Below, one piece after another: positions 3,426 to 59,100 of a stretch of 64,000 nucleotides of DNA. The stretch is from Diphasiastrum complanatum (taxonomy: Eukaryota > Streptophyta > Lycopodiopsida > Lycopodiales > Lycopodiaceae). Under the pieces are notes generated by a model. The model worked only from the letters and a program-made list of their open reading frames with translations, was not told where the DNA came from and made no database searches. The position numbers and the translations under genes were made by a program. Where the stretch lies: the NCBI GenBank assembly GCA_029204225.1, contig CM055113.1, forward strand, positions 26,031,462-26,095,461, read 5' to 3'. How positions within the stretch are numbered: position 1 is the first letter of the stretch; every line of letters starts with the position of its first letter.

Positions 3426-3430
3426 ACCCT

Positions 3431-5761: not shown

Positions 5762-6342
5762 TCATTAGGGGAAATTTAGGCCCAAAATGGGCCCTTTAAC
5801 AAATTTGGCTTTAGAGAGAGGTTACAGAGAGAGAGACTAGAAATCGGCACCATTTGGTTACCATTTTTCTAATTTCCAGTAATGCCTGCATTCTTAGAAC
5901 TAGCTCTAACTTCAGACATTAATTAGTTAAGTGTGTTTGTAATAACAACCATACATTTGTCATATAATCTGGGGCTATAAACGTCTACCAATAAATTACA
6001 ACATGGTACCTGCGCCTAAAAATAATGAATGGTCTATCATTAAAGCCTAATGTTCATCGAATTCCATACCTAGAGATATGATACATTCACGGAAACTCAT
6101 GAGGCTCCGCTCTACATAAGCGCAAACATGACAATAAAAAAAACTTTACGTTCGAATTTCACGTCCAATTATCGATTCAGCGCGTTCACAGATCATTCGG
6201 ATATCTTTCAGCCATGGCGGGTCACGTGGCGTGCACCTCGGCCTAGGAGGCGGAGGTGGTGGATTTCCTTGGTGGCCTCCTTGCATTGGGACACCTCCAA
6301 GATGAATTTGTGATGTTTGCTTTGTGCGAGCCATTTGCAAAT
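5762..6342 (-). mobile_element. Partial DNA-transposon-like element with CATTAGGGG terminus
   Basis: A terminus beginning CATTAGGGGAAATTT and containing CAAAATGGGCCCTTT starts near 5763. The same terminus is at 52004 and 8652 in this orientation, and inverted at 41529 and 54178. In copies with the internal ORF, an ORF starting MARTKQT points toward this terminus from about 460-570 bp inside. The far end is missing here: at 6342 sequence switches to copia gag. The superfamily is not identified. Confidence 0.5.
6146..6334 (-). CDS. Small ORF with a histone H3-like N-terminus (MARTKQTS)
   Basis: From the ATG at 6334 the ORF has 62 codons: MARTKQTSQIHLGG, a Gly/Gln segment, a run of six Pro, then PRCTPRDPPWLKDIRMICERAE. 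The first seven residues equal the start of histone H3, but nothing afterwards resembles a histone fold. A shorter copy is at 52442-52573. A divergent homologue at 41072-41206 shares the start and a P-x-x-x-DI-x-M block. An in-frame upstream Met at 6427 is not supported, because homology between copies ends within about six bases of the MARTKQT ATG. It may be a complete small protein or the first exon of a transposon gene. Confidence 0.5.
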   Translation of the reverse strand: MARTKQTSQIHLGGVPMQGGHQGNPPPPPPRPRCTPRDPPWLKDIRMICERAESIIGREIRT

Positions 6343-7080: not shown

Positions 7081-7142
<62 letters not shown>

Positions 7143-7614: not shown

Positions 7615-7700
<86 letters not shown>

Positions 7701-8146: not shown

Positions 8147-8180
<34 letters not shown>

Positions 8181-8475
8181 AATCTCTTGCTCTCTATTTT
8201 TAGGCATGAAAACATAACCAATACACAACACATAAACTATGATCTCATAACTTAAAATAACAAGACTAGGTTATGATCCTACAAATCAGAGTAGCACAAA
8301 CTAGTAAGCATGAAACATAAATCAAGATTTTGCGAATTAGGGTAGCATGAAGAGGTAATCATGAAACATAAACGAATGGCATCACACATGCACACACACA
8401 TGCACACACACATAATAGAGTGCTAATCAAAACTCCCAAACCGTACAATTATATCCTATTCCAAAATGTCACCTA
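6811..8475. repeat. Tandem array, about 530-bp unit, three copies plus a partial fourth
   Basis: Units start at about 6811, 7344, 7874 and 8382 (spacings 533, 530 and 508 bp). Each complete unit has a CACACGCAC-rich head, a conserved block near CGTACGGTTATATCC, a block ending TGGGAGTGTTGGTT, then a CT tract (7085-7141, 7617-7695 and 8149-8179), then ATGAAAACATAACC. CT length differs between units while the flanks stay similar. The fourth unit stops about 90 bp in. ORFs across the units are not coding. Confidence 0.93.
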
Positions 8476-9110
8476 CGCACCAAGGGAGAAACTCTTCCTC
8501 ACATGGTTCTGGGGGAGGTTCTAATGGGAGCCATGATAATTTGACCGTATTCACTCCGATTTCGATCTCATCATCAAGGGTGACATGTTTTTGATTTGAA
8601 GTTCTCAATTCGGACTCTCGATTGGTTTCTCGAAGTAGGGAGATAGTTCCTCATTAGGGAAAATATGGGCTCAAAATGGGCGCTTTAAGAAATTTCACTT
8701 TCGAGAGAGGTTACGTAGAGAAAGAATGTGAACCGGAAACGTTTGGTCATCGTTTTCCGAGTTTTTGGCCTTGCCCGACGTGTAACTGGTATGGTTAACT
8801 TCAGACATTAGTTAGTTAATCTGGAGATGTAATAACTTCTCTACATGCTCGTTTCAAAATTTGGGGCTAGAGCTTTAAGATTGTAAAGCTTGGTGTGCTG
8901 ATTGCAAAAATTGAAGTGGGAGTGCAACGAGCACTTTTGAAATCTTTGTATGCTTATAGTGAAATATGAGGCCGAACGATTTTTCAGCGCAACATAGACA
9001 TTACAAAAGTAAGGTGTGCTAGATCTATTCAGTTTGACTTATTGTAGTTTGAAGCATTTGCGGATTGTAGCTTTCAACAATAAAAAGGTTCCATTTGCAT
9101 GTTGCACTTC
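8476..9110. mobile_element. Partial CATTAGGG-terminus element and flank
   Basis: The terminus at 8651 is a third copy of the CATTAGGG...CAAAATGGGC end. It is followed to about 8890 by sequence related to 5790-5990 (GAGAGAGGTTAC, AACTTCAGACATTA, TTGGGGCT). It is the most divergent copy and lacks the MARTKQT ORF. The remainder to 9110 is unassigned. Confidence 0.5.
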
Positions 9111-9116
9111 CTATGA

Positions 9117-10240
9117 TTCGAATGCACTCAAATTATTAAGAAAAATTTAAAAGCTGTAGAGAATGTTGCTGCTATAGTTAGAGAATTGAGAATGAATAAT
9201 CATAAGAATATAGATTTGTGGTTGGATGGATCAATTTGGCCTAATGGTCCAGCTACCAATTTGTGTCCAAATTTCAAGTCTGTAACTCATCTTCTCAGAT
9301 TTGTATGTGAAGAAAATAGCAGATTACTTGGATATTGTCAAAGGTTGTGTGATATTGGAATGCATAGTGTATCTTGTATTAATCAACAATAACAGTTTTC
9401 TAATCAACAATTTCTTCATTATGTGCAACACACTAGTGCTGAAAACAATGCACTCAAGCATGCTATATCAGAGTTGAATGCTACAGTCACTACTCTTCAG
9501 GGATCAGACCTAGAAATGTTAGAATTCATGGAGAAGTTGCGATCCGACAGTTTAAAATCTGTTGTTGATATAAAAGTTATCAAAAAGACAATGATGATAA
9601 GAAAAAGAAAGAGAGTACCGATGAAGAATGTTGATGACTTATCTACACACAACGGCAATCAGAAAAAAAAGATTTGAGCATTTAAGCATGTTTTCTTATA
9701 AACAGTTTATTTGATTTGTATTGGTCATACAAGTTTCATTTGCATTTGATACTATGCATTATCAATTTATTAAAGATAATTCGAGTTTTATATGTCTGTT
9801 GCAGATCATTTTTGGTGGCAAAGAACTATTTAACAGATCGTTCATGCATCGGATCTTCTTTAAGACTTGTTTTACCAAGAAAGTTAGCAAAGGCAATGAT
9901 GAAAAATGCTCGGCTTGAAAAAATAAAAAATGAAATTGCAGAGACTTTGAATGAGGTTCAAACTTACTTGGATGCAAACGTGATACTAGGGGCATGTGAT
10001 TCTACTTTTTTTAGAGTAGTTAAAGAAGCCTTTTCTCAAGTGATGGTGAAGAAAACATATCTTCCTTGTCCATATCAGGTAAGATTAGCAAGAAATTATT
10101 ATAATGACGGAATGTTCAAAGTAGTTGGCCAACCACTTCATATAACTCAATTATGTAAATCAGAATATGGTGAGTGCAATTACAATGATTGTAATAATAT
10201 TTTCCTTGATATTGAAAGTGTTCTAAAATACATTATTTGA
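9117..10240 (+). pseudogene. Unknown gene, decayed (two or more exons)
   Basis: One frame is open from about 9117 to 9677 except for a TAA at 9390, which would be Gln CAA before a C-to-T change. It contains the segment SELNATVTTLQGSDLEMLEF, likely a coiled coil, and a basic tail (MIRKRKRVP). A second part from about 9805 to 10240 follows a good splice acceptor (TGTCTGTTGCAG). It contains LPRKLAKAMMKNARLEKI and KTYLPCPYQVRLARNYYND and ends at a TGA. I recognise no family. Only the last 27 bp recur at 53565-53590, so the right-hand duplicate lost the gene. Transposon origin is likely given the surroundings, but unproven. Confidence 0.4.
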
Positions 10241-10787
10241 AAAACTTTCAACAATTTCTTGGTGGGATGTATTATGTGAATCATCATCATGCACAATCCA
10301 ATTGAATCCATAACATGAATTCACATTCTTGTGAGCACTCGCTTTCATCAAACTTATGTCATAATCTAGCACGCTAGCATGGATCTCGGTATATTTACTA
10401 TTCTTCTCAGTAAATGCTTTCAAGAAAACTGAGCCATAATCATTTAAGCCTTCTTGAATGTCAATCACGCATCCACAATTCAGTTTCTTTCTAGCATCCT
10501 TCTTGACAGCAAAAAAAATATGTCACATTTTCATCAAAGTCCATCACTTCGAAGCACCACTTATAATTATAGTCAATCTCAACAAAATTGTCCAATTCAC
10601 CAATTATAGTTCCTTCTCTATTGAGTTTATTTGCATTCCCTTTGACTCTACTACAAATATTTTCTCCCCAACACTTATAAAAATAAATTTCATCCAAAGA
10701 GATCAATGGAGCAAGACAGAACTCAACAATAATGGCAATGTGCCTTGATAAGTTAGTTTTTAGTTGATCGTAGTCTATTAGTATCAT
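10223..10787 (-). pseudogene. Unknown ORF pair split at a T-run, duplicon A
   Basis: Two minus-strand ORFs (10787-10491, then 10468-10223) read as one protein if the frame shifts once at a run of eight T near 10511-10518. The first contains HIAIIVEFCLAPLISLDEIY and a Cys/Trp patch. The second contains KLNCGCVIDIQEGLNDYG and YGFNWIVHDDDSHNTSHQE. The duplicate at 54508-55050 has the same total length through the T-run, so the frame offset is shared. Either the lesion predates the duplication or the run is a slippage site. No family is recognised. Confidence 0.4.
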
Positions 10788-10804
10788 TTATTTGTGATGT
10801 AATA

Positions 10805-11480
10805 TTAATCTCATGATATTATCAATCCAAGCATCATCCATAGCCGATCGATGTTTTCTTCTAGAGTGATTTATGAAAACATTGAAAGGCTTTGTAAGGC
10901 GAAGGGTAAGGCATAGGGCAGCATGGTGGAAGGGTGGCTAGTGCAAGAATTCATAGTCTCTACCGTGGAGGTCATTATATTCCTCATGTTTGGGAAAAGA
11001 AGAATTAAAAGAAGGATGATCTGTGTCTTTTTGGGAAAAGAAGGATGATTTGTGTTTTTGGGGATACTTTTATGTATTTTACATGTTCAACACATCTTGA
11101 CATATATTATCAATCAAAATTTATTTCACTGATACCTTTTGTTATTTTTTTTTTAGTACAAAAATACAATATGCATGGACGACATTTTCTTGTGGAGCAC
11201 ATTGATAAAAATAGAAACACATATGACTGTGGAGTCACGACAAATATTACTCAAGGGAGTTGACCAAGCACGATATTGTGGGATGGTCAATGATATCTTG
11301 GAAATTGGATTTAGGCAATTCAAACTTTTTAAATTTGATGTAATTAAAACTATTTAAGATTATTTGTAATGGTCCTGATGACATGCGGCGAAAGTTGAGA
11401 ACAACTATTTTGTTATTGACTCCACTAAGCTTTGGACATATTAGTCAAGTGATAAATTTGTAGTTCCTCAACAATGTGAG
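10805..11480 (+). pseudogene. CACTA TNP2-like transposase fragments, duplicon A
   Basis: Two decayed pieces parallel the better copy at 48985-50750. Near 10845-10925 is a match to FMKTLKGFVRRR. Near 11160-11480 is one to HIDKNRNTYDCGV and a DUF4216-like stretch. Frameshifts and stops are frequent. The intervening part (10930-11110) is shortened. Confidence 0.7.
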
Positions 11481-12885
11481 CAAGTACATAAATGTGTTCA
11501 ATTGCAAATAGTCCCAATTATTGCCCTTTTTGTGTTAATTAGTTAATCTTCTATATATAAATTGTATATGTATATATGTACTTGAGCTCAAGCAATTATA
11601 ACATGCACTACTTTATGGGATGTGTGCTTCTTTGTGGACTACAAGAGATAGTAGGCATGCAATTTAGTAGGTGCAAAAGTTGTGCATGTGATGATTTTCA
11701 TGGCAAGTAAAGAATGAAGTGCTGATTGCAAATACTTTGTTTGCAAAATTATTGCTCATGAATGCTTGAAAGATATTGTGATGTGAGAGCTTGATAGTAT
11801 AGTAAAGTGTGGTTTGAATGATACTCACATCTTTTCCTAACATTTTTATAACATGTTACAAGGAAGAGCAATTTTCCATACACTAATATAAATAAACTAA
11901 TGTGCACAAACTCCCATATTAATATGAACATAGATTATAGTTGCCCACACCTAAATTTGGGCATCCTTGGGCATTTCTTTCTCTAAAAACTCTATTTCCT
12001 AGTTGGCACTTGTTATAAGGTCTTTTTTGAATTGCAAACTATTCATGGGTTGGTTGATGAGGAGTCTTTTAAACTAGCTACCCAATGCTTTATAAGTTTA
12101 TTAGAAGCTCTCAAATATATGGACATCCAAGTCCTATCCTAACGCCTTCCAACATGGGACATATTGCTAGAATAGAAGTCAATTAGAAATTCATATATAA
12201 AATGCAGACTAGACAACTAAGATATGGACAACGTCATGACTTCTAATTATCAAATTACTTTATCAACATTTGGGGCTTGAACTTCAATCAAGCACAGTAG
12301 GAATGACTCTTTCAAATTTCCCGTCTGTAGAAGTATTTTTAATTTGTGGACTACAAAAGGATCATAGGTATACAATTGATTGCTAGTTGTACTGTATGTG
12401 ATGATTTTATGGCTTATTTTGTGTGTTAGCCATATATTATAAGATGTTGCATACAGTGTTTTCTGATCTGTAATGGTAATGCAACAAATCTATGTAGATG
12501 TAGATGAATTGGAATGTAATGTCCAAATTTTGTTATGTTTCGTAACACTATGTTGTTAATTTTTAGGAACGAAGATATAACAATAAAATCATGTGAGGGC
12601 ATGATTGCATAAACCTTCAATTGCCCCATATAAATTGTGAACGCGGAAAACCAACATGAAGTAGGAAATTCGAGCTTTTCAGGGTACGTTTCTGGGCGAC
12701 AAGCACGACTTATTTGGAAAAAAAATTTGTGAATGAATGAATGGATGCCGTATGAATCTTCTGATTGAGCAGGAGTACATATTGATGGCATTATCCAACA
12801 CCAAATTCCAATATGCGGAGCACGCATCGGTTAGTGTAAACGCATGGCAAGTGGCAATGTCATTCCGGCTCTTTCAATATTTAGC
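11481..12885. other. Downstream flank of GH18 copy A, no gene
   Basis: AT-rich sequence shared with 55490-56766. Short ORFs such as 12426-12827 (minus) are not preserved in the duplicate and carry no motif. It probably holds the 3-prime UTR and polyadenylation region of the GH18 copy next to 12886. Confidence 0.5.
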
Positions 12886-13846
12886 TTAGGTAGAGAGAAA
12901 AGAAGCCACGGCCTGCTCCGTGCTGAAGCCACTTCCTTTGTCATTGTCCACGTTGAAGATCATGATGCCTGGGATGGTCAACTGCTGGGCGGCTCCAATG
13001 AAGTCGGATCCCTGCAGTCCTCGGCCAGCCGCCTCCACGCTAGGTAGCAGCTTGCTAGCATCGAAGCTGCCAGCCACAGTGTTGTATCTGCTTATGCAGT
13101 CGGATTGCGATGCCAAGCCATCAGCATAGAACTGATAGTTCACGTAGTCTATGGAGGAGCCGAAGTTGGCAAAGAGGTCTGCGTAGATGGAGATAGTGGC
13201 TCCAAAAGGGGCAATGGAGGCTATGGAAATAGTTCCAGAGCTCTTGAGCTGGGAGATGAGACCACCGATGCACGTGGTGAAGGTGGCAGAGGTGGGGAAG
13301 TTCTCGTAGTCGACGTCGACGCCGTCCAGCGAGTACTGAGAGACGAGGTTGGAGATGGAGCTGACTGCATTGCTGATCCAAGTGTCGGTGCTGGGGGGGT
13401 CGTACCAGTCGACATTCCTGGTGGTGCCGTCTGAGAGGAATTGGGAGAAGCCTGCGAGGCTGACAAGAAGCTTGACGTTGGGATTGCTCTGTTTGAAGCT
13501 CTGTGCAGACTGAGGGGTGAGACTGGAAGCCCAAAAGGCATTGAAGTTACCATTCTGAGTGTTGCCCGATGCGTCTGCATCGATGGCGAAGGACAGCGGT
13601 AAGATGTATTGTAGGTAGGGAGGCAGAGATAGGGAGATCCGTGAACTGTAGGTCTGATGCTCCAGAGGCGCCAATGTAATCTACGATGAGGTTGCCGTGG
13701 CTGGATTGGAGGAGTGCACGACCTCCTGCCCCAGGGAACTGTCTGAGCGCATAGGCCGCGTTGATGGCCATCATACATAGTATCATCAGCAGCACAGGTT
13801 GCATAGCTGAAACCCGGGGAAGTTGAATTCCTCGCCTCTGTGCCAT
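12886..13846 (-). pseudogene. GH18 chitinase-like gene, copy A (frameshifted)
   Basis: Intronless gene of about 320 codons, the usual size for plant GH18 chitinase-2-like proteins that hydrolyse or bind chitin-type glycans. ATG at 13846 opens a secretory signal (LLMILCMMAINAAYA, residues about 19-33). Beta-strand 1 (NLIVDYIGA), VKLLVSLAG and the catalytic motif DGVDVDYE near 13303-13326 are all present, the last with all three Asp and the acid Glu. Later strands include ISIASIAPFG, VNYQFYADG and GIMIFNVDND. A 4-bp duplication (GTAGGTAG on plus, 13611-13618) shifts the frame after about 77 codons, so an ATG-started product would be short. The downstream frame has no ATG before its core (13674 is TTG). 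It differs from copy B by a Cys/Phe codon. The old lesion and two near-identical copies suggest duplication after inactivation. Confidence 0.88.
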
Positions 13847-14023
13847 CGGAATAATTTCTGAATCAGCCTTTACTAGAGTAGTGCTGTATGTATATATGGT
13901 ATGTTGACGAATTGTGGGCTCACAGATGAGACGACGAGGGGATATGAATTATGAGATGGAGCAGAGCAGTGCAGTGCAATTATGCTTGGGAATTTGTGAA
14001 TGACAGTAGGGAAGAGCACATTT

Positions 14024-14031
14024 TATTTATA
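14024..14031 (-). promoter_or_regulatory. TATA box of GH18 copy A
   Basis: TATAAATA on the minus strand, 178 bp before the ATG at 13846. Same spacing as copy C and close to copy B. Confidence 0.65.
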
Positions 14032-14540
14032 TGGGCTCGTGAAGACTTGGGGCAGAGAAATTCGCGTCTAATGTTGTGGAATAGAGCAACTAAGTCAGTT
14101 GCTTGACTTAGTGTATCCATTATTATAGGGGGCGTGTTGAAACTCCCATAAAGAAATATGCACCAAGTTCACCTTACATGTCTCTTGCAGGCGTCTAAGA
14201 ATAAAAACATATGTGCCTCAATTTTGTTTTTCCCCAATATGTTAAATGCTCGGTACCCAACTTGGGCAACATCACCTTTACCTCATTGTTTTTTGGCCTT
14301 GCCTTGCAAAGGCAATAATTACTATGTGTTGAGGTCGGTCAACCAGGGAGTTTGATACAAAGTCAATGTTAAAGGATATTAATATGTGGTAGTGGTCTTA
14401 ATTTTTAAGGCTAAACCATCATCAATTGAGGGCAACTAAAGTAACATGCATTGTTGCCATTTCAAAATTAGTATGTCAAAGTGCAAATTGCATGAGCAAA
14501 AAGCAAAAGCTATTTATTATCTTTTGCATGATCCTAAGCA
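14032..14540. other. Upstream flank of GH18 copy A
   Basis: The first 130 bp are the proximal promoter shared by all three copies. From about 14170 to 14540 the sequence matches only 58250-58610. No gene is evident. The ORFs at 14158-14355 and 14426-14635 lack motifs. Confidence 0.5.
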
Positions 14541-14652
14541 AAGGTATCCAAATTGTAGAGCTTGTATGCCTTGTGGTCTGGGGAATAGCCGATGAAGATC
14601 GTTTTCCTGCTCTTATCATCCAGCTTTCTTCTTAGATCTTCAGGGATCTGAA
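14541..14652 (-). pseudogene. Ty1/copia integrase C-terminal fragment
   Basis: The minus strand reads VQIPEDLRRKLDDKSRKTIF followed by IGYSPDHKAYKLYNLDT. This is the copia-type motif just before the reverse transcriptase. The aligned part of the copia copy at the right edge is near 62941-63050. Same strand as the copia gag-protease at 32537-33933, so it is probably the downstream remainder of that element, split by the LTR array between them. About 700 bp of integrase core are missing. Confidence 0.75.
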
Positions 14653-39377: not shown

Positions 39378-39850
39378 CTAGTACTCATCAACATCAGCTG
39401 CACATGCACCAACCAATTTGTACAAATACTCCTTGATGTGTGCTCGAGAGATTTTTGGAATAGATATTGATCTTTCGACATCATATCCACATTTCTTTAC
39501 CATCTTTTTTGCCTTGGTTTTCCATGCATAAATCACAGCATTAATATCTACAACTTCTACACCTTAAATTGTTTGAAACCCAGTCTTTTGAAAGACAGTC
39601 TTCGTATAATTCCTTGTTGTCAATTGGATTGTTTCCACGTCTCCGAGTGGAGTTAGGTTCATACCATAATGCTTTGAGTGAAGTGGCCATACCATTAGCA
39701 TTGGTCCCTACTCCGACAACCTTTGCCATCCAGAATGAGGCTCATGCTACAACATCTTCATCTGGAGGTCGTCGTATTGCAACAAATTTGTTCATTGCAA
39801 ACTCTCTACTAAGTATGAATTCCGATAATGGTGCATCTCCTTTCCATACA
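39378..39850 (-). pseudogene. C-terminal remnant, probably of the DUF7869-like transposase gene
   Basis: Minus strand from about 39850: WKGDAPLSEFILSREFAMN, VAIRRPPDEDVVA, a TGA, ASFWMAKVVGVG, ATSLKALWYEPNSTRRRG and NPIDNKELYEDCLS. After one frameshift near 39568 come VDINAVIYAWKTKAKKM and IPKISRAHIKEYLYKLVG, ending at TAG. The FW-x-AKV...WYEP pattern recalls BAH-like modules, which is only a resemblance. It is on the same strand and downstream of the transposase pseudogene 41524-43670, and the foldback plus TIR element lies between. So it is plausibly the tail of one interrupted gene. Confidence 0.5.
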
Positions 39851-39851
39851 T

Positions 39852-40735
39852 CAGATAGAAAAGTCGGAAACTAGGCGATATCAGATGTTGCACGCGGGAG
39901 TCCGGAATACGAATATCACGATTGGGTCGGACACGCTGAACTGATATTGAAAACTCAAACTTTTGAAAGACAGCTCAAATTGAGACGATTACAATGCCAT
40001 TGGAAAGCCCTCGACAAGAGCTTTTCAACAACATCCAACATGACCCAATTTTGAGATACGGTTAATGAGATATTATCAGTCAAAGTTTTGGGCGATAAAT
40101 AGTCAAAGGTCAACATAATATCGGATCTGCGAGTGGTTGACCAGTTTGACCCGGTAAAATCCTAAGGGCACGCGTCGATCCGATATTAGAGTTTTCAACT
40201 TTTTTTTTTTTTAAAGAGCTTGACGAGAGCTTCGCAACGGCACCAGAATGACCTAATTTCGAGTTACAATTCAAAAGTTATAGGCAGTCAAAGTTTTGGG
40301 GCCTATAACTTTTGAACCGTAACTCAAAATTAGGTCATTCTAGTGCCGTTGCGAAGCTCTGATCGAGCTCTTTCCAAAAAAAAAATGAAAACCTTAATAT
40401 TGGATCTACGTGCGCCCTTAGGGTCTGACCGGGTCAACTGGTCAATCACGCGACATCCGATATTAGGTTGACCGTTGACTATTGACCGCCAATACTTTGA
40501 CTAAGAGTATCTCTTTAACCGTACCTCGGAACTGGATCATGTTGGGTGCCGTTGAAAAGCTCTCGTCGAGGGCTTTCTAATGGCGTTGTAATCGTCTCAA
40601 TCCAGGTTGTCCTTAAAAAGTTACCATTTTTTTTTAACAACAGGCAATATCGGTTTAGTGCGCCCGACCCAATCGTGATATTCTTATTCCAGACTCCCAC
40701 GTGCCCATCCGATATCGCCTAGTTTTCGAATTTTC
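39852..40735. repeat. Foldback: inverted repeat with arms of about 430 bp
   Basis: Left arm 39852-40284 and right arm 40302-40735 are imperfect reverse complements around a 17-base loop (40285-40301). Examples are GGCGATATC near 39893 against GATATCGCC near 40711, and CAAAAGTTATAGG against CCTATAACTTTTG at the centre. The arms are rich in the word GATCCGATATT. Related single or broken arms lie at 52580-52845 and 53820-54070. No ORF. Confidence 0.9.
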
Positions 40736-41071
40736 TGTCTGATATTGGTTCAACGCGTCCGACCTACATTCTATAGCTGCTGACTTTCTACGCGCGCGTT
40801 GATCCAATACTGGGTTTGCGAATGGCCTCTGGTACTAAATGAAAACCAAATGAAATATTCTAATTTTTAGAGGGGATATTCTAGATTTTTCCTTTGATGT
40901 GGAGGCAGCCGCTTCTAATCTACAAAGATTTCAAAGTGTGTGATCGTCCAAAAAACAAAGATCAGCATGGGAAAAGTATGAAGACTCGGGTTATCGATTC
41001 GGCGTGCGCCTCCTATACTGCCTCACTATTGATCTGTACACATGCGCGCTGATCCGATACTAGGACATCGC

Positions 41072-41206
41072 ATGGCCCGCACCAAACAAACTGCTCGTCT
41101 TCATCCTGGTCGGCATCAATGGTTCCTCTTGGTCTCCAATCGTGTGTCGCCATTAGTCCAAGATATCTCTATGAATGAGAACAAAGAGAATGAGAGGTAT
41201 ACGTAA
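41072..41206 (+). CDS. Small ORF with a histone H3-like N-terminus (MARTKQTAR)
   Basis: 44 codons: MARTKQTARLHPGRHQ, then a hydrophobic stretch and SPLVQDISMNENKENERYT. The first nine residues equal the histone H3 N-terminus including Lys4 and Arg8; the rest is unrelated to H3. It is homologous to the ORFs at 6146-6334 and 52442-52573 by position behind GATCCGATAT-type sequence and by the P-x-x-x-DI-x-M block. Compared with them the MARTKQT codons differ only at synonymous sites. Its downstream side leads to the TIR-like terminus at 41496-41531. Function unknown. Confidence 0.5.
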   Translation: MARTKQTARLHPGRHQWFLLVSNRVSPLVQDISMNENKENERYT

Positions 41207-41531
41207 GAATGACAAGAAGTTCCTAAACTACATGGATTAGTTAACTACAGTTTATAACTATTTACGTCAAATCAACCTCGAGTGTACAAATATGGGCAAC
41301 AAAAGAGTATTCGGGCAGTAATTGTGGTCCAATCACAATCGTTTGTATTGCCCGACAGGATTTTTGAAAATCACCAAAATTTGACCAGGATAGGCAAAAG
41401 CAATTTCCATCCGTCAACCACTGTTACAGTTCGTCACAGATGGACACCATTGATTTGGCCACTTAAGTGTTGAAAGCGTGCGAAGTTGAAAAAAACATCT
41501 TGACAAAGGGCCTATTTTGAGTTCTAATATC
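41207..41531. mobile_element. Outer part of a CATTAGGGG-terminus element
   Basis: Ends in the inverted terminus (plus GGGCCTATTTTGAGTTCTAA then ATCCCCTAAT), the same family as 5763, 8652, 52004 and 54178. The opposite end is not found. The element probably includes the ORF at 41072 and the foldback. Confidence 0.45.
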
Positions 41532-43670
41532 CCCTAATATATCCTGATAGTGGCAAATTCTTTTGTTTTGTGAGGTACTCAAGAAGTTTTGTGTTTTCAT
41601 CCACAGATGAGAAATTTTGATCTTTGTATTCTGGATACTTCTCGCACATATATTGTCCATATTTATGAAAGGATATCAATCCTTTCATCTCATCATTGTC
41701 CAGTTCATTTGTGGGTGCCAAAAAGATCACTTCCTCTTTTGAAGACCAAGAGTGCAACAATCTGAAAGGTTCACTCCATGTATCATCTCCATCAGTGCAA
41801 TAATACTTCCACTGCATGGTTGGTTCGCCATTCAACATTTGAAAATGAAAGTAGTGAGAGTTGGTGTGTCCTTCTAGACCATCATTTCTATGAACAATAA
41901 ATGGCTCTATGAATCCTTTCCAATCCACCATTCGTTCTAACAAGTCTACTTCAGTACTTTCAGTATGACCACCACCTATCTTTTGGCTAATTCGTCCTAA
42001 CATATCAGGCATAGTAAGAACGAATTTACATTTCAATGTCCTAGAGATTACACTAAAAACTTGATCGATTTCTTCATGCATGTGTTCGACCATCAAAAAT
42101 CCCATTTCAACAGTTTGAAATATGTTATGTGCCACAAGCATAGAACAAAGACCAGAGATGAACCTATTTTTATTTTCCCTCCAACAGTTGTCAGCTTGAA
42201 TATGTAAGATGGGAGGGAGATTGTCGCGTGCAAGTTGCACCTTTCGTATTGCTCGGATAATGGATGTGACACCTGATTGCTGTCATGCAGATGCAAGGTG
42301 TCTATCCACACATCACAGAGAAATTTGAATTCGTGAATTAGCACTCCACAAACATGTGTTTTCAAAAAATGGTTACCCTCCAATCTTGGAGGAGTCTTTT
42401 TGAAGTGGGGCAATGTTGTTGTATTTTGATCCATGCCATCAATAATAAGGCACAACGATTGCTCTGGATGTGATCTTGATTCTTCTTTCCAATATGTGTA
42501 TAGCTTTCTCGAGTCAAAAACATGCAATAAGTGTCGATTTCTCGTTGCAATATGGTGATCTTGCACCTTAATATCAGTAGAAGTTTTGATTGCATTTTTT
42601 AGCTCATCACAAATCTTGCATTTGGACATTCTTTTTTTTTGTTGGAGTCTTGACATATCAAAACTCATGTCTCCACAACCGATACAATGTATTTCTAGAG
42701 ATTGTGGACATGCTAGTTTCTTGAAGTTCTTTGTTGATGGAATTGAAGACATTACCTTTCGACATGCCAAGAGGGAGATGATGTTCACAATGAACTACTC
42801 CATGTAAGTGATTTTGCGTATACATAATTTCTTACAAAAAGGCTGCATCAAAATTCCTTTTATATGTTGTAGCGATATAATAAAATCTGTCTTCTTCAGA
42901 GTGACGAATGCAAGCACACGCTTTCTTTTGCAGTTTCGAGAAGCTCCAAAAGATTCGAAACTTGGATCATGTTGCATTGGACTCTCAAATCTTTTCTTGT
43001 GTGATTGACCAACTCTCGATACAGATTCTTTTAACATTGCATTCCAATTACCTATCTCGTCATCTTCATCAAAATCAAATATAGAAAAATCTGAATCATG
43101 TTGTCTAGAAGCTGTAGAAAGCAATGTTGCAGAGGATGCACCTGTTGTCTTTTTGGATTGTCTTGCCATTTGAGAAAGTCTATGACTGTGACTGTCGGTG
43201 ATAGCATTTGCTTGAGATGGATTGCAGTGTCCATTTTCCTCATTAACATTTCTCATATGCATGAATAAGTTTTAACTAGACCCATTTCGCCGAGATACAT
43301 TATTGTTAACCACATTGTCTATCCCAGTTAGGATTTTTGAGTTGTATGTCGATCGTGTCAGATCATAACCAGTTGCATCGTCCACGCCTGTCAAAACATC
43401 AGAGTTGTACAGAGCTGGTCTTGTAGCAGTGCTATCAGTCACATCATGAGCATTGATATCATCCACACCGGTGAGAACATCCGAACTATACCTAATCCGT
43501 TTGAAGTTTGCACTATTATTATGATTGACATCTTCCATGCCAGTGAAAAAATTAGAATTATATGTTGTTTTTGTTGATGTTCTCTTGTCGTGATTGAAGG
43601 TAGTTGTACATTGCATACGTGTTGATGATCTGTTGTAATTGCGATCATAATATGTGTAATACTCATTCAT
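41524..43670 (-). pseudogene. DUF7869-like putative DDE-type transposase
   Basis: Read from 43670: an N-terminal region with four copies of a Y-N-S-x-x-x-TG-x-(D/E) repeat (YNSNFFTGMED, YSSDVLTGVDD, YNSDVLTGVDD, YNSKILTGIDN), a Ser-rich basic linker, a Cys/His region (CIGCG, KCKICDEL), then the presumed catalytic core. Core blocks are LCLIIDGMDQNTT, LPPILHIQADNCWRENKNR and MVEHMHEEIDQVFS, with conserved acidic residues as in DUF7869-type proteins. The tail includes HYFHFQMLNGEPTMQWKYY. Stops at 43272 (TAA, likely Gln) and 42797 interrupt one frame, and a frameshift near 42265 separates the last part, so it is dead. The continuation may be at 39378-39850. Confidence 0.7.
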
Positions 43671-51350: not shown

Positions 51351-51596
51351 GTTGAATAACAAGCATCAAGACATTGGATTATGTGTGCTACTTAGTACTA
51401 TTAGCGGTTGAAAATGGTGAAACATGCCTCAGGGGCATGCATATTGTAGAGGGAATGGTAGAGGGCATGTATTGTCAAAGGGTCTTTGATGAGGATGACA
51501 ATTAACTAAGCTTGACAACTGATTGTTATCAGGGGAAAAACTAGTACCTTAATCTCAAGGCACATATTCCTAATCCTAAGGGTATCCCTTACCCAC
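51351..51596. other. Unassigned spacer
   Basis: No gene or element end seen. The right duplicate begins at 51597. Confidence 0.4.
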
Positions 51597-52576
51597 CTTG
51601 CCGTTACGAAACAAAATCTTGTTTTGAATTGCAAAATCCATTTCAGTCTTTCCCTGATTTGAGAAACCTTGCATACCTAAATTGACCCCAGAAAGTACTT
51701 GTTGCCAATATTGAATTTGTTGGTATAAAAGTTCAAGAGCTTGTGCCACATTGGATGGGTTTGATAGCTAAAATGATGGTTTTCATTGGTTTGATCCATT
51801 GGAGCTGCTTGTCAATTTTCCTATTATGCAAATACAACAAGTAATTCTAATTAGAATGGCAGAAATGCTTCAATTCTTACATAATCCAATGCAAATAAAA
51901 GCATTTACTTCTACTCATTCAATACTTATTGTTTGTAAGATCAATCCAAGCCTACTTTTTGCAGGCTCAATCCAAGCTTAAGAGAAAACTACACCAAGCA
52001 ATTTCATTAGGGGGAATTTGGGCTCAAAATGGGCCCTTTAAGAAATTTGACTTTAGAGAGAGGATACAAAGAGAGAGACTGGAAACCAGTACCATTTGGG
52101 TATCGTTTTTCTAATTTCCAGTAATGTCCGCATTCTTAGAACTAGCTCTAACTTCAGACATTAATTAGTTAAGTGTGTTTGTAATAACAACCATGCATTT
52201 GTCATATAATCTGGGGCTGTAAACATCTACCAATAATAAATTACAATATGGTACCTGCGCCTAAAAGTAATGAATGGTCTATCATTAAAGCCTAATGGTC
52301 ATCGAATTCCGTACCTAGAGATATCATACGTTCACGGAAACTCATGAGGCTCCGATCTACATAAGCACAAACATGACAATAAAAGAAACTTTACGTTCGA
52401 ATTTCAAGCCCGAATATCGGTTCAGCATGCGCACAGATCATTCAGATATCCTTTAGCCATGGTGGGTCATGTGGCGTGCATCTTGGCCTAGGAGGCGGTG
52501 GATTTCCTTGGTGGCCTCCTTGCATTGGGACACCTCCAAGATGAATTTGTGATGTTTGCTTCGTGCGAGCCATTTG
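51597..52576. repeat. Segmental duplication, right unit part 1
   Basis: Matches 5352-6342 colinearly. The first 190 bp are antisense Ty3/gypsy pol (minus LLYQQIQYWQQVLSGVN region), the rest a CATTAGGGG-terminus element with the MARTKQTS ORF. At 52577 it continues into GATCCGATAT-type foldback sequence as expected for a fuller element. Confidence 0.88.
52442..52573 (-). CDS. Small ORF with a histone H3-like N-terminus, second MARTKQTS copy
   Basis: 43 codons: MARTKQTSQIHLGGVP, a Gly/Gln segment, a run of four Pro, RPRCTPHDPPWLKDI, then a TGA where the copy at 6146-6334 continues. Nearly identical to that copy through the duplication. It lies directly downstream (on minus) of foldback sequence, as does the ORF at 41072. 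Confidence 0.45.
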   Translation of the reverse strand: MARTKQTSQIHLGGVPMQGGHQGNPPPPRPRCTPHDPPWLKDI

Positions 52577-52845
52577 CAGACCCAATATCGGATTAGCGTG
52601 CACGTAGAAAGTCAGCAGCTATAGAAGGTAGGTTGGTCGCGCATTAGACAGAAAAGTCGGAAACTAGGCAATAGCGAATGGGTGTGCGGGAGTCTGGAAT
52701 AGGAATATCGTGATTGGGTTGGGCGCACTGAACCGATATGGCATGTTGTAAAAAAAAATTGGTAACTTTTGAAAGATAGCTTGAACTGAGACGACTACAA
52801 TGCCATCAGAAAACCCTCGACGAGAGCTTTTCAATGACATTGTTG

Positions 52846-53037
52846 TAAAACTACCTTTACAAGCCTTACTTTCGGCGCCACTGGCGCCAGCAGCGCCCCT
52901 GCTGCTCCCGGCGCCACTGTGACCAGAATCCAGCCGACGCCAACTCCCTATGGCTGAAAATCTTTGATTGGTTCTAGCGAAGTCCAGAGAGCTCAGGTCG
53001 ATGTGCAATCACCTCAGGCATGATTAAAGGAAGCCCA
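52846..53037 (+). mobile_element. LTR fragment of the non-coding element, plus orientation
   Basis: Starts TGTTGTAAAACTACC at the LTR 5-prime end and runs through the GGCGCC block to CAGGCATGATTAAAGG. It is inverted relative to the array at 14656-32536. Confidence 0.85.
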
Positions 53038-53040
53038 GGG

Positions 53041-53564
53041 ACGGTCTGACTTACATCAGACTTAACCAACTGAAAGCTTCGTCATGAGCACTGGAAGCCA
53101 ACCTGGCGCCACGCCAGACTGGACAGCCATAAATAGGTAATTTCCACCCAAGCAAGCCATCCAACTCAGCCGACAGGTTAGAGCCCGTTCCCCAAGAGCT
53201 TAACTCATTCACGTTCATGCAAGGAACACTCAGAACCACAAACCACAACAGATATGGAGACAACCAGTTCCTGAACCAAATGGTCCCGACAGCATACCGC
53301 TGGCACCACGGACCGAATGGTCTTGACGGCATATCGTTGGCGTCCCGAGATACGACGCTCAGCTATGTGCCAACTTAAAAATTTGAAAGCGGGCTTACAA
53401 CTGGCGCTTTTACCGAACACTGAAACCCAGAAGGTAATCAGAGTCAGTTTGAGGAAAATCCCACTTTATTGATAAATCTGGGAAGGTTACATTTCAAGCG
53501 TGTGACCGACCCTAGCTCCGGGGCGCTAGCATGCCAAGACGAGAGCCATGACAACATTCCAGGA
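53041..53564 (-). mobile_element. LTR fragment of the non-coding element, minus orientation
   Basis: Matches LTR b from about 18245 to 18760. It sits head-to-head with the fragment at 52846-53037, so an LTR was broken and partly inverted. It ends at CATTCCAGG where duplicon B begins. Confidence 0.85.
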
Positions 53565-54507
53565 AAGTGTTCTAAAATATATTATTTGATTCTATAAACT
53601 AGACGAACATAAAATAAATGGAAAGATCATTATTGTAATAAAATTGGATGAAACCAACATTAGAGAAAATTTGGCCTTGGAAAGGGCTTTATAAGGATTG
53701 CCACATAGGATGACAATTTTTTGGCAATGTAAAATACTAAAATAAAATCTTTTTTTTTGCCCGCAGTCCTGGCCACACAGTCTTTGATGATTAGCTATTA
53801 TGTGGGTAATATAGTCTGTGACTAAAAAAAATCATAAATTTTGAACGACAACTCGGATTGAGACAATTATGGTGCCATTAGAAAGCCCTCGACGAGAGCT
53901 TTTCAATGACATCCAAGATGACCCAGTCCGAGCTACGGTGAAGAAGTTATGGCCAGTCATAGTTTTGGTTGGTCAACACTTGGTCAACCCAATACCTCTT
54001 TCAAGCGTAGTTGACCGGTTTGTCACCGTAATCTAATGGCACCGTAATCGTCTCAATTTGAGTTGTGGTTCAAATTTGAGTGTTTTGATTGGACCATGTG
54101 AAAGAAACTTTTGAGAAAAAAAATAAAAGGTATCTTTTTGAAAGGCCCCTTTTGTGCTCAAATTTTCTCTAATGAATCATCAAAGGTTAAAAGTTGGAAC
54201 GAGTGAGTCTCACGTCGAGGACTTTTGAACAAGACACGCGTTGATTCGATATTCCGTTGGAAGAGGCTGATATCGCTTCAGCGCGCGTGAATGATTATGA
54301 TCAGGGTGTCAAAAACCAAGTGCGCATTGAATCGATATCGCATAAGAAGAGGATGATATCACATCAGTGCACGAGAGGAGATTGTCCTCTTGTGAAAGTA
54401 TCTGCTTGCAACTCTCCGTTCTGAGGTGCACACCTCTTTCTTAGCTGGGTTTTTTTCTTGGAAGTAAAGGTTGTATCGTTTCTAATTCGAAATTTGGCCT
54501 TTGTAAA

Positions 54508-55050
54508 ACTCTCAATGATTTCTTGGTGGGATGTATTATGTGAATCATCATCATGCACAATCCAATTGAATCCATAACATGAATTCACATTCTTGTGAGC
54601 ACTCGCTTTCATCAAACTTATATCATAATCTAGCACGCTAGCATCGATCTTGGTATTTTACTATTCTTCTCAGTAAACGCTTTCAAGAAAACTGAGCCAC
54701 AATCATTTAAGCCTTCTTGAATGTCAGTCACGCATCCACAATTCAGTTTCTTTCCAGCATCCTTCTTGACAACAAAAAAAAAATGTCACATTCTCATCAA
54801 AGTCCATCACTTCGAAGCTTCACTTATAATTATAGTCAATCTCAACAAAATTGTCCAATTCACCGATTATAGTTCCTTCTCTATTGAGTTTCTTTGCATT
54901 CCCTTTGACTCTACTACACATATTTTCTCCCCAACACTTATAAAAATAAATTTCATCCAAAGAGATCAATGGGGCAAGACAGAACTCAACAATAGTGGCA
55001 ATGTGCTTTGATAAGTTAGTTTTAAGTTGATCATAGTCTATTAGTATCAT
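54508..55050 (-). pseudogene. Unknown ORF pair split at a T-run, duplicon B
   Basis: Counterpart of 10223-10787 with the same frame change at a run of ten T (54776-54785 on plus as A). The upstream part keeps CLAPLISLDEIYFYKCWGEN and the downstream part NVNSCYGFNWIVHDDDSH. In this copy the upstream frame ends at a TGA where A has Trp (YNYKW). The downstream end of the ORF runs into foreign sequence at 54364-54505. Confidence 0.4.
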
Positions 55051-55084
55051 TTATTTGTGATGTAATATTGATCTCATGATATCA

Positions 55085-55270
55085 TCAATACAAGCATCAT
55101 CCACAACCGATCGATGTTTTCTTCTAGAGTGATTTATGAAAACATTGAAAGGCTTTGTAAGGCGAAGGGTAAGGCCTAGGGCAGCATCGTGGAAGGGTGG
55201 CTAGTGCAAGAATTCATAGTCTCTACCATGGAGGATCATCATATTCCTCATGGTTTGGGAGAAGAAGAAT
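55085..55270 (+). pseudogene. CACTA TNP2-like fragment, duplicon B
   Basis: Same FMKTLKGFVRRR-type block as 10845-10925. The DUF4216-like part seen in duplicon A has been deleted here. Confidence 0.65.
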
Positions 55271-55325
55271 GAAAAGAAGGATGATCTATGTCTTTTTGGG
55301 AAAAGAAGGATGATTTGTGTTTTTG

Positions 55326-55327
<2 letters not shown>

Positions 55328-55376
<49 letters not shown>
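55328..55376. repeat. (GA)n microsatellite
   Basis: About 49 bp of GA, inside a roughly 120-bp insertion that duplicon A lacks. Confidence 0.95.
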
Positions 55377-55380
<4 letters not shown>

Positions 55381-55489
55381 AATTTGTAAGGGGATGCCAT
55401 TTTAAAGTTAGCCATATCTAATAAACTACTGACATGCTCAACTAGTACTTTTATGTATTTTACATGTTCAACACATCTTGACATTTATT

Positions 55490-56766
55490 ATCAATCTAAT
55501 AATGATACTCACATCTTTCCTAACATTTTTATAACATGTTACAAGGAAGAGCAATTTGCCATACACTAACATAAATAACCTAATGTGTACAAACTCCCAT
55601 ATTAATATGAACATAGATTATAGTTGCCCACACCTAAATTTGGGCATCCTTGGGTATTTTTTTTTTTGAAAACTCTATTTCCTAGTTGGCACTTGTTATA
55701 AGGTCTTTTTTGAATTGAAAACTATTCATGGGTTGGTTGATGAGGAGTCTTTTGAACTAGCTACCCAATGCTCTATAAGTTTATTAGAAGCTCTCAAATA
55801 TATGGACATCCAAGTCCTATCCTAACGCCTTCCAACATGGGACTTATTGCTAGAATAGAAGTCAATTAGAAATTTATATATAAAATGCAGACTAGACAAC
55901 TAAGATATGGACAACGTCATGACTCCTAATTAGCTAATTACTTTATCAACATTTGGGGGGGCTTGAACTTCAATCAAGCACAGTAGGAATGACTCTTTCA
56001 AATTTCCCGTCTGCAGAAGTATTTTTAATTTGTGGACTACAAAAGGATCATAGGTATACAATTGATTGCTGGTTGTACTGTATGTGATGATTTTATGGCA
56101 AGAAAGAATGAACCGTGGATCGTGTAGTTCGTGGATGCTTCAGCAATTTGGCAATGATAGAAGTTGATAGCGATCAACGTCCTTTGAATGATACTGTTTT
56201 TCGGAATCAGATAAAATATTTGTAAGATTTTGAGCTTATTTTGTGTGTTAGCCATATATTATAAGATGTTGCATACAGTGTTTTCTGATCTGTAGTGGTA
56301 ATGCAACAAATCTATGTAGATGTAGATGAATTGGAATGTAATGTCATGTGCAAATTCTGTTATGTTTCCTAACACTATATTGTTAATGTTCTGGAACGAA
56401 GATATAACAATAAAATCATTTGAGGGCATGATTGCATAAACCTTCATATAAATTATGAACGTGGAAAACCAACATGAAGTAGGAAATTCGCCTCTAGCAT
56501 TGCTTATAGGTCGAGTCTGGGCGACAAGCACGACTTATTTGGAAAAAAAAATTGTGAGTGCGATGCACTCCAATGCCTTGAGGCCAACACTCTGGTGGAC
56601 ATCGTTGACAAGAATGAATGAATGGATGCCGTATGAATCTTCTGATTGAGCAGGAGTACATATTGATGGCATTATCCAACACCAAATTCCAATATGCAGA
56701 GCACGCATCGGTTAGTGTAAACGCATGGCAAGTGGCAATGTCATTCCGGCTCTTTCAATATTTAGC
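55490..56766. other. Downstream flank of GH18 copy B, no gene
   Basis: Counterpart of 11815-12885. It has about 120 bp near 56095-56230 absent from A, in which a piece reads antisense ILQIFYLIPKNSIIQRTLIA; no family recognised. Confidence 0.45.
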
Positions 56767-57727
56767 TTAGGTAGAGAGAAAAGAAGCCACGGCCTGCTCC
56801 GTGCTGAAGCCACTTCCTTTGTCATTGTCCACGTTGAAGATCATGATGCCTGGGATGGTCAACTGCTGGGCGGCTCCAATGAAGTCGGATCCCTGCAGTC
56901 CTCGGCCAGCCGCCTCCACGCTAGGTAGCAGCTTGCTAGCATCGAAGCTGCCAGCCACAGTGTTGTATCTGCTTATGAAGTCGGATTGCGATGCCAAGCC
57001 ATCAGCATAGAACTGATAGTTCACGTAGTCTATGGAGGAGCCGAAGTTGGCAAAGAGGTCTGCGTAGATGGAGATAGTGGCTCCAAAAGGGGCAATGGAG
57101 GCTATGGAAATAGTTCCAGAGCTCTTGAGCTGGGAGATGAGACCACCGATGCACGTGGTGAAGGTGGCAGAGGTGGGGAAGTTCTCGTAGTCGACGTCGA
57201 CGCCGTCCAGCGAGTACTGAGAGACGAGGTTGGAGATGGAGCTGACTGCATTGCTGATCCAAGTGTCGGTGCTGGGGGGGTCGTACCAGTCGACATTCCT
57301 GGTGGTGCCGTCTGAGAGGAATTGGGAGAAGCCTGCGAGGCTGACAAGAAGCTTGACGTTGGGATTGCTCTGTTTGAAGCTCTGTGCAGACTGAGGGGTG
57401 AGACTGGAAGCCCAAAAGGCATTGAAGTTACCATTCTGAGTGTTGCCCGATGCGTCTGCATCGATGGCGAAGGACAGCGGTAAGATGTATTGTAGGTAGG
57501 GAGGCAGAGATAGGGAGATCCGTGAACTGTAGGTCTGATGCTCCAGAGGCGCCAATGTAATCTACGATGAGGTTGCCGTGGCTGGATTGGAGGAGTGCAC
57601 GACCTCCTGCCCCAGGGAACTGTCTGAGCGCATAGGCCGCGTTGATGGCCATCATACATAGTATCATCAGCAGCACAGGTTGCATAGCTGAAACCCGGGG
57701 AAGTTGAATTCCTCGCCTCTGTGCCAT
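56767..57727 (-). pseudogene. GH18 chitinase-like gene, copy B (frameshifted)
   Basis: Nearly identical to copy A at 12886-13846 in coding sequence, 5-prime UTR and promoter. It has the same signal peptide, the same catalytic DGVDVDYE, and the same 4-bp duplication (57492-57499) that breaks the frame after about 77 codons. A Phe codon (SQSDFISRYN) stands where copy A has Cys. Apart from the shared lesion no other stop is present, so the lesion is either recent or the downstream frame is under some constraint. Secreted chitinase-like activity would be expected only from an unbroken relative elsewhere. Confidence 0.88.
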
Positions 57728-57909
57728 CGGAATAATTTCTGAATCAGCCTTTACTAGAGTAGTGCTGTATGTATATATGGTATGTTGACGAATTGTGGGC
57801 TCACAGATGAGACGACGAGGGGATATGAATTATGAGATGGAGCAGAGCAGTGCAGTGCAGTGCAATTATGCTTGGGAATTTGTGAATGACAGTAGGGAAG
57901 AGCACATTT

Positions 57910-57917
57910 TATTTATA
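57910..57917 (-). promoter_or_regulatory. TATA box of GH18 copy B
   Basis: TATAAATA on minus, 183 bp before the ATG at 57727. Spacing is 178 bp in copies A and C; the 5-bp difference is an extra GCAGT repeat in the UTR. Confidence 0.65.
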
Positions 57918-57996
57918 TGGGCTCGTGAAGACTTGGGGCAGCGGAATTCGCGTCTAATGTTGTGGAATAGAGCAACTAAGTCAGTTGCTTGACTTA

Positions 57997-58013
57997 GTCT
58001 ATCCATTATTATA
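57997..58013. other. SINE target-site duplication, left copy
   Basis: GTCTATCCATTATTATA, repeated at 58122-58138. Copy A has a single version (GTGTATCCATTATTATA). Confidence 0.88.
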
Positions 58014-58121
58014 GGGGGCCCAAAGGGGTTGGCCTAGTTGGTTAACTTGGCATCCAAAGTTTCTTTGGTCCCAAGTTCGAGCCTCCATTGGAAACTGTTG
58101 TAAAGCTACCTTTACAAGCTT
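58014..58121 (+). mobile_element. tRNA-derived SINE in the GH18 copy B promoter
   Basis: About 108 bp with a Pol III A box TGGCCTAGTTGG (58030-58041), a B-box-like AAGTTCGAGCCTCC (58073-58086), then CATTGGAAAC as in Au-type plant SINEs. Flanked by 17-bp direct repeats and absent from copies A and C. Its last 26 bases (58096-58121) match the 5-prime end of the non-coding element LTR and form a TTGTAAAG/CTTTACAA hairpin. Confidence 0.8.
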
Positions 58122-58139
58122 GTCTATCCATTATTATAC

Positions 58140-59100
58140 GGGGCGTGTTGAAACTCCCATAAAGAAATATGCACCAAGTTCACCTTACGTGAATGAATCT
58201 GCATTTGCGACTATTTTTTCAGCGTTAAGGAAAGAGCAAGGGTAGTCTCTTGCATGCGTCTAAGAATAAGAACATATGTGCCTCAATTTTGTTTTTTCCC
58301 AATTGGTTAAATGCTCGTTACCCAACTTGGGCAACATCACCTTTACCTCATTGCTTTTTGGCCTTGCCTTGCAAAAGGCAATAAATACTATGTGTTGAGG
58401 TCGGTCAACCACGGAGTTTGATACAAAGTCAACGTTAAAGGATATTAATATGTGGTAGTGGTCTTAATTTTTAAGGCTGAACCATCATCAATTGAGGGCT
58501 ACTAAAGAAACATCCATTGTTGCCATTTCAAAATTAGTATGTCGAAGTGCAAATTGCATGAGCAAAAAGCAAAAGCTATTTATTATCTTTTGCATGATCC
58601 TAAGCAAAGGCAAATTCCGAATGTGATCTGTTCATAAACTTTATAAGTATGTGTGTGTTGATCAGCCAGGTCTAGCATTCTATTGTAAAGGCAGTAGCTT
58701 TCGTGAATGGGCTACAACCACAACAAGTGGCTTTATGAGGTGTAAGAAGAGACAATTAGCGGAGTGTCGCCTGAGGTAGAGGTTGCAATTACTTGGCAGA
58801 CGAGTCTGATCAAATTTGAAGCCATTCATACAACTGTGAATCGTGCAGTACACCTGAAAAGTGGTCCATGTAGACGATCGTAATGGTGTCTCATGTAAGA
58901 GATCATGTAAGATGTGTTTTCTTTTGAGTCTATGCACTCATCTTTTTTACTCATGCAATCTGAACATGTAGTGTGGTTTAGAATTTTACCTTCTATACGT
59001 ATGTAGATGCCCAAAGCTTCCAGCTTCAGTATTTGAATGTACAGTGTGTTGTAGAAGATACCGCTTGCCCAAATAGAAAGAATTATCATGAAGCTCTTAG
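58140..59100. other. Upstream flank of duplicon B and unassigned sequence
   Basis: To 58610 it matches duplicon A. 58613-58690 recurs in part at 59506-59585 (TGAATGTGATC, ATAAACTTTATAA, GGTCTAGCATTCTAT). ORFs 58680-58937 and 58826-59341 (minus) have no motif. Confidence 0.45.

Follow-up and report, generated by a model that had tools for sequence, protein, structure and literature searches.

The 64,000-nt stretch of the Diphasiastrum complanatum genome analysed here (the window) contains three open reading frames that begin MARTKQT, at 41072 on the forward strand and at 6334 and 52573 on the reverse strand, all with zero mismatches; 0 of 100 shuffled sequences held as many. A preliminary description of this DNA had pointed out these starts, the continuation of the one at 41072 to MARTKQTAR, and the fact that within MARTKQT the copies differ only synonymously (GCC/GCT, ACC/ACA, AAA/AAG and ACT/ACA), and each of these observations was borne out on the reading frames, with ACG as a further codon beside ACC/ACA. 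The blocks around 6334 and 52573 are a single duplicated unit with 92.9% identity over 995 nt, so the window carries two independent lineages rather than three. The starts and their neighbouring features are as follows.

41072..41206, forward strand: copy A, a short open frame (MARTKQTARLHPG...), presumed front end of an H3-like gene, A41/L002 type
6149..6334, reverse strand: copy B, a 62-aa open frame (MARTKQTSQIHLGG...PPWLKDIRMICERAESIIGREIRT), H3-like front end reaching the alphaN helix region
52394..52573, reverse strand: copy C, duplicate of copy B, with a stop after PPWLKDI
5763..5793, forward strand: TIR end (CATTAGGGGAAATTTAGGCCC...) adjoining copy B, motif match
52005..52035, forward strand: TIR end adjoining copy C, motif match
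41509..41539, reverse strand: TIR end (TATTAGGGG...) adjoining copy A, with 7/31 mismatches to the query motif
8652..8682, forward strand: TIR end of another element, followed by a transposase-like gene, motif match
9120..9362, forward strand: transposase-like gene, piece 1, 42% identical over 81 aa to the gene of the loc1 element (see below), E 4e-18
9812..10237, forward strand: transposase-like gene, piece 2, 35% identical over 152 aa to the same gene, E 3e-28
53658..54174, no strand assigned: short element with inverted ends at both sides (CATTAGAG...CTCTAATG), motif matches
39850..40743, no strand assigned: foldback (long inverted repeat) upstream of copy A
52575..52840, no strand assigned: foldback-type sequence immediately upstream of copy C, common to the copy A region

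Exact copies of the inverted-end motif CATTAGGGG occur twice in the window, at 5763 and 52005, a number that 12 of 100 shuffles also reached; when mismatches were allowed, further sites were found at 8652, at 41539 (reverse strand, TATTAGGGG) and at 54174 (reverse strand). The earlier statement that every start adjoins a terminus element is correct with the exact motif only beside copies B and C, at a count that chance can attain, and beside copy A when mismatches are admitted. It had also been stated that two of the starts lie directly behind foldback sequence. This is accurate for 52573, whereas at 41072 the long foldback ends at 40743, some 330 nt upstream, and it is a foldback-type unit (GATCCGATAC, at 41051) that sits just ahead of the ATG. 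The DNA adjoining the second transposase-like piece (10236-11064) is duplicated at 54500-55329, and the short element at 53658..54174 is probably a deletion derivative. Several stretches of 5349-14544 and 51591-58610 are collinear at about 93-96% identity, which points either to a duplication of some age or to a large element present twice. On the reverse strand, 41524-43670 is occupied by a disrupted gene that encodes a DUF7869 domain (Pfam E 6.7e-22) and whose final codons overlap the inverted end beside copy A. We considered this gene (41524-42752, reverse strand) as the carrier and rejected it, as it showed no match to the loci loc1, loc5, L040 or L056 described below; no paper on DUF7869 was found among the open-access papers searched.

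The search for further starts that the preliminary description had proposed returned 930 exact matches to ATGGCNMGNACNAARCARAC (MARTKQT) in the 1.74-Gb genome, against 0 for a reversed-pattern control. With up to one mismatch there were 982 plus at least 1000 matches (reversed control, 7), and the first 100 matches listed included at least 42 synonymous spellings of the start. Among the first eight genome matches by position, H3-fold sequence was present in five (L001, L003, L004, L005 and L006) and the tail plus first helix in L008, while the fold went undetected at L002 and L007. L003 is a 231-aa open frame composed of the tail start, a linker, an H3 fold and a basic proline-rich extension (Pfam Histone E 2.7e-22; best PDB matches to H3 variants, H3.3 and cnp1, E about 1e-18). 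L056, a 404-aa open frame with the start MVQTKQTAR, has the same layout with a longer C-terminal region, and it aligns with L003 plus the next open frame (368 aa, 27% identity), so the extension is probably one protein. In L023, a 412-aa open frame beginning MARTKQ, the H3 fold lies at the C-terminus, separated from the start by a Ser/Arg-, Gln- and Pro-rich tail of ~300 residues (L039/L023: Pfam Histone E 6.8e-29; PDB H3 E 4.7e-26). Across related loci the H3-like open frames range from 152 to 412 aa.

The proposal that a transposon protein mimics the H3 tail on a non-histone body was not supported, the fuller members carrying a histone fold; the remark that the rest of the protein is not histone applies to window fragments A and B, which matched no Pfam family when searched alone, and fails for the family. 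The silence of Pfam on these two fragments is what one would see if unrelated short frames had happened on a MARTKQT start, but the 930 matches against 0 reversed, the three window starts against 0/100 shuffles and the histone fold in the same frame led us to reject such a coincidence, whose probability we regard as negligible. A Pfam Histone search of the genome gave at least 153 matches, 13 of them canonical H3 and about 140 others, including a few partial host-type rows; 150 of 6325 first-look candidates were scored, so these counts are lower bounds. Protein queries of two types, L4 and L3, gave at least 150 scored matches (6014 candidates) and at least 151 (7118 candidates), respectively, and many of these copies contain stops or frameshifts. 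One scan of viral contigs found no relative.

Copies B and C connect the window to this family. Against the H3 fusion of L056, copy B shows 45% protein identity over 65 aa (E 3e-4) and copy C 49% over 51 aa (E 7.5e-6), the alignments stopping at the first helix, before the fold core; at the DNA level the identity is 78-79% across 56-68 nt (copy B: 78% over 68 nt, E 5e-9). For copy A no histone fold was detected in the downstream DNA, nor in L002, the sole other member of its type that was read. Its presumed membership thus depends on three features, namely its start of nine residues, its inverted end and the surrounding foldback sequence, which makes it the least secure link of the three window copies. 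Overall, the window copies very probably derive by truncation from an H3-like histone gene, of which they preserve the front part; the gene is carried by a family of large DNA elements that have a conserved transposase-like gene and, wherever both ends could be located, inverted ends of the CATTAG type.

The L003 locus (loc1, comprising L042 and L045) reveals the architecture of one such element. It is 9.1 kb long and runs from CATTAGAGG... to an inverted partner CATTACAGG..., with inverted ends at 1386 and 10499 whose alignment score of 18.5 exceeds the highest value reached by 200 shuffles (17.0). The element splits a copia gag gene, its ends lying at the two sides; for this one element, comparison with another gag copy showed no target site duplication. 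Its cargo includes a gene that we call X, the H3-like gene and further frames, with the transposase-like gene on the opposite strand. The look-up for a full-length element that had been suggested for this DNA thus produced one, with CATTAG-type inverted ends; it is the only histone-bearing element for which both inverted ends were found, and their score is modest. At loc5, an L023-type locus, the transposase-like gene is 37% identical to that of loc1 (E 2e-66), and at L040, also L023-type, gene X is 30% identical to its loc1 counterpart (E 1e-10). Two diverged element types therefore both carry the H3-like gene linked to the transposase-like gene, together with gene X. The transposase-like gene is common to loc1, loc5 and the window, and the inverted ends in the window are of the same kind as those of loc1.

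A Pfam search with gene X and the transposase-like pieces returned nothing above the cut-off (best sub-threshold E 0.0064 to 0.19, unrelated families). Clear inverted ends were not found at the L023-type locus, and the fetched stretches of five more L3-type loci contained no left ends; three of these five match loc1 in reverse order and two were unmatched. An identical copy of L003 on C1 was considered as a fresh transposition and rejected, since its flanks are duplicated along with the element. Two further observations concern organisation. At loc1 the H3-like module lies between inverted repeats of ~70 bp (2938-5112) and it apparently has the opposite orientation in the L3-type loci L008, L098, L099 and L102; perhaps it is an invertible segment. 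At L007 (C1:15042369, reverse strand) a MARTKQTACPQST start stands beside a gypsy-type integrase frame, in a spelling that recurs among the genome matches, and a comparable front end may have been acquired there by a retroelement.

The lysine at H3 position 4 is usually tied to active genes and that at position 9 to silencing. Six types of the H3-like gene use different codons at nearly every degenerate site and specify an identical peptide through T6. Four of the six (L3, L23, A41 and L026) share the peptide through R8; in L4 copies position 7 is T or A, mostly T, and copies B and C read ARTKQTSQ (S7, Q8). The shared part of the tail ends before K9: residue 9 across the six types is L, G, D, L, I and E, and not K. 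MARTKQTAR starts number 514 genome-wide, with K9 in 26, and 24 of these 26 are at canonical or presumed host H3 genes (13 canonical H3, three beside partial histone matches on C7 and, twice, C22, and eight on C11, C20, C21 and C22 that we presume to be host H3). The remaining two (C1:40570870 and C17:25721131) appear to resemble the L026 type. L026 itself (C13:7458104) is an H3-like gene of another type, MARTKQTAREPQ...KFMEEIKKYQKSTRLLLLRAPF..., and is possibly a host variant or a progenitor.

Further along, the family tails do not match H3 at K9, K14, K27 and K36. K4 is present in 48 of 48 L3 and L4 copies (18 L3, 30 L4) and is the sole lysine before alphaN in 34 of them (10/18 L3, 24/30 L4), in a sample picked for high score or lack of stops, which favours conservation. 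Some of the six types were found via the peptide itself, and 17 loci (L022-L038) were found via the fold. In 11 of these 17 the start was seen within the fetched DNA, as MARTKQTAR in eight and with a single change in three, not all still in frame with the fold; ten of the 11 belong to one closely related type and hence are not 11 independent cases. Known K4 readers need a free alanine at position 1. In the L23 type another ATG lies in frame four codons ahead of the start (MSEEMARTKQTAR, MSEEMARTKQT), so its N-terminus may not be free, and a free alanine end would require the second ATG.

The claim that selection acts on the peptide was supported between types and not within families. Between the six types, A1-T6 has a pS of 0.865 and a pN of 0.010, the two non-synonymous steps probably being an artefact of averaging paths between the arginine codons AGG and CGC; no stretch is better conserved between types than the tail start. 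Within families, pN/pS (pooled pairwise ratios, without a significance test) over the first nine codons is 0.71 in L3 and 0.65 in L4, against 0.30 (n=18) and 0.57 for the fold; the start is thus no better conserved than the rest, the comparison that had been proposed as a check. For L23 the fold value is 0.35 (n=12). Overall the outcome of the proposed checks was mixed. On the second of them, whether most members lack the start, exact MARTKQT is retained in 13/30 L4-type and 6/18 L3-type copies, many having lost it. In 21 of the 29 copies without it R2 is changed, mostly from CGG to CAG or TGG, which looks like a CpG pattern. A conserved fold with a decayed start is in line with constraint on the genes during their active life, followed by decay once they had inserted. 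By eye, TAG is apparently the commonest stop in decayed L3 and L4 copies, and such an excess would be expected if methylated CAG sites decay to TAG.

These values bear on whether the histone gene is simply a passenger, a host H3 captured long ago and amplified unused, with pseudogene copies and a tail kept by common descent. The many copies with stops or frameshifts and the tail pN/pS of 0.65-0.71 within families are in keeping with such a history, as is a fungus whose hAT-amplified H3 copies have all been inactivated, according to the available text of PMC6710886. Set against it are tail synonymous sites that vary freely between types around a fixed peptide (at least 42 spellings), a fold pN/pS of 0.30-0.35 in two types, and the persistence of the gene with its element partners across types whose transposase-like proteins are 37% identical. 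We consider a passenger gene unlikely, though it deserves to be weighed seriously.

Fold identity between the compared types is roughly 30-50%. Within the fold, R69, R72 or K72, R83, R116 and D123 are kept in all nine hand-picked rows from the transposable elements, and K115 and T118 in all except L086, where a deletion affects this part; R63 is absent from 9/9 rows and C110 from the three L4 rows. These kept and like positions we take, on H3 numbering, to be DNA- or H4/H3-contact sites. The conservation is relevant to a further possibility, close to the reader/writer idea of the preliminary description, namely that the protein is a decoy that never enters nucleosomes and whose ARTKQTAR end sequesters proteins that read, write or erase H3K4 marks, or the T3 kinase. 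Such proteins read the stretch that ends at T6 to R8, which is where constraint between types ends, the remaining tail being free to change. A decoy would have no need, however, of a conserved fold with many conserved DNA-contact and H3-H3 interface positions, and we judge this role to be quite unlikely.

In a tree of hand-picked rows, with plant CENH3 and human CENP-A rows as references, the nine element rows cluster together (support 90/91; recovered in 88% of bootstrap trees), apart from both H3 and CENH3; branches are long, so the exact place of the element histones is unsure. Loop 1 is longer in L3 and short in L4 and L23, and L3 and L4 resemble plant CENH3 in the LIP of helix 1 and the RW of loop 1. 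A search with rice CENH3 gave 150 scored matches, and in these no separate single-exon host CENH3 could be recognised; a spliced gene would escape such a search. None of the best 60 PDB matches listed names a plant CENH3.

One L3 spelling, followed as a 30-mer, is concentrated on C3, with 34 of its 53 exact matches at 18.53-21.66 Mb and seven at 29.94-30.15 Mb, so that 41/53 sit in two clusters. Of six copies retrieved from the first cluster, four have this spelling and two a closely similar one. In four of the six the frame is uninterrupted and specifies an H3-like protein of 152 aa, which terminates shortly past the fold; the other two have a TAG and a frameshift, respectively. Beyond the fold, homology to the element is lost and the DNA continues into satellite-like repeats. 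For this sub-type the fold pN/pS is 0.50, from five copies (L107 left out) whose first codons, free positions apart, are the same because the search pattern fixed them. Because the compact gene has no extra domain, tethering by such a domain would not be general.

This packing (C3:18.5-21.7 Mb and 29.9-30.2 Mb, 41/53), the LIP and RW features and the longer loop 1 of L3 are what might be expected if the elements encoded a CENH3-like histone that helps them to sit in or build centromeric chromatin. The element histones nevertheless group by themselves (90/91) and not with CENH3, the loop of L4 and L23 is short, and the starts on C1 and C2 are dispersed along the chromosome (KS p 0.50 and 0.06), and we therefore find a centromeric function improbable.

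Our preferred reading is that these are transposon-encoded H3 variants whose tail can carry the K4 mark and not the K9 or K27 marks, and which perhaps resist silencing; we hold this proposal in even balance. In this scheme the H3-like product would be expressed and would pair with H4, entering nucleosomes near its site of synthesis or where an extra domain tethers it. Its tail would be modified with, or display, a K4-type active mark, or would bind K4 readers and writers, and it could not receive the K9/K27 silencing marks. Lacking these, the element would gain chromatin that the host silences poorly. That the whole scheme operates as an anti-silencing histone is a tentative proposition, to which we give somewhat less than even credence. 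More speculative is the broadest form of the proposal, that a DNA transposon superfamily made an H3 variant one of its working genes, retaining the tail up to the K4 recognition motif and dropping the silencing lysines, and so makes its own anti-silencing nucleosome, open to active but not to silent marking, and that in one lineage a compact 152-aa form was released and amplified in a megabase-scale cluster on a single chromosome; we regard this as possible, on balance rather doubtful.

In the open-access papers searched for transposon-encoded H3 variants the nearest precedent is H3 amplification in fungi. Pseudocercospora fijiensis carries a hAT DNA transposon with an intron-less H3-derived sequence in hundreds of copies; according to the available part of that report (Dhillon et al. 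2019, PMC6710886) the element makes 8-bp target duplications, most H3 copies match exon 3 only, and all amplified copies have been inactivated by RIP. The same text describes tens of H3 copies in Pyrenophora tritici-repentis, with little RIP and many potentially active. These cases are precedents for amplification of H3 as a passenger (PMC6710886). The lycophyte family is like them in that H3-derived sequence is amplified by DNA elements. It differs from the P. fijiensis hAT, so far as that account goes, in having no hAT domain match and, at the one element loc1, no target duplication, in comprising a number of diverged H3-like types that retain open frames, bear added domains and have a fold pN/pS below 1, and in the shared A1-T6/R8 tail end with K9 lost; Pyrenophora is compared by description only.

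Other transposon genes act on host silencing by different means. VANC of VANDAL elements is a transposon-encoded DNA-binding counter-silencing protein (PMC10398659, available text), and DNA transposons carry TET/JBP enzymes and SET methyltransferases (PMC12730594, available text). In each case an element gene acts on host silencing marks, as the H3-like gene may do here; those products are DNA-binding proteins or enzymes, whereas this one is a histone. In a review of gene capture (PMC13317346), the word 'histone' occurs 0 times in the main text, as far as that text was available.

With canonical H3 and its variants the family shares the ARTKQTAR tail end, an H3-type fold and many contact residues; it departs from canonical H3 in the loss of K9 and the silencing lysines beyond, in extra N- or C-terminal regions and in being borne by mobile elements. 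Like CENH3/CENP-A it has a fast-changing tail and the LIP and RW features, but it forms a separate tree group and its loop 1 is inconsistently longer. Histone mimics such as EZHIP likewise display an H3 tail motif, as a short peptide on an unrelated protein, whereas here the motif sits on a histone-fold protein.

Transposon-borne counter-silencing genes that encode DNA-binding or enzymatic proteins are already known, as is transposon-amplified H3 in fungi. If the reading favoured here is true, an H3 variant that has long been maintained, and has diverged, as a transposon gene would give selfish elements a novel means of influencing host chromatin. Its tail amounts to a natural mutagenesis experiment in which the K4 motif was kept and K9 and the residues beyond were lost, and the family thereby allows a direct test of which segment of the H3 tail is required and which one draws in silencing.
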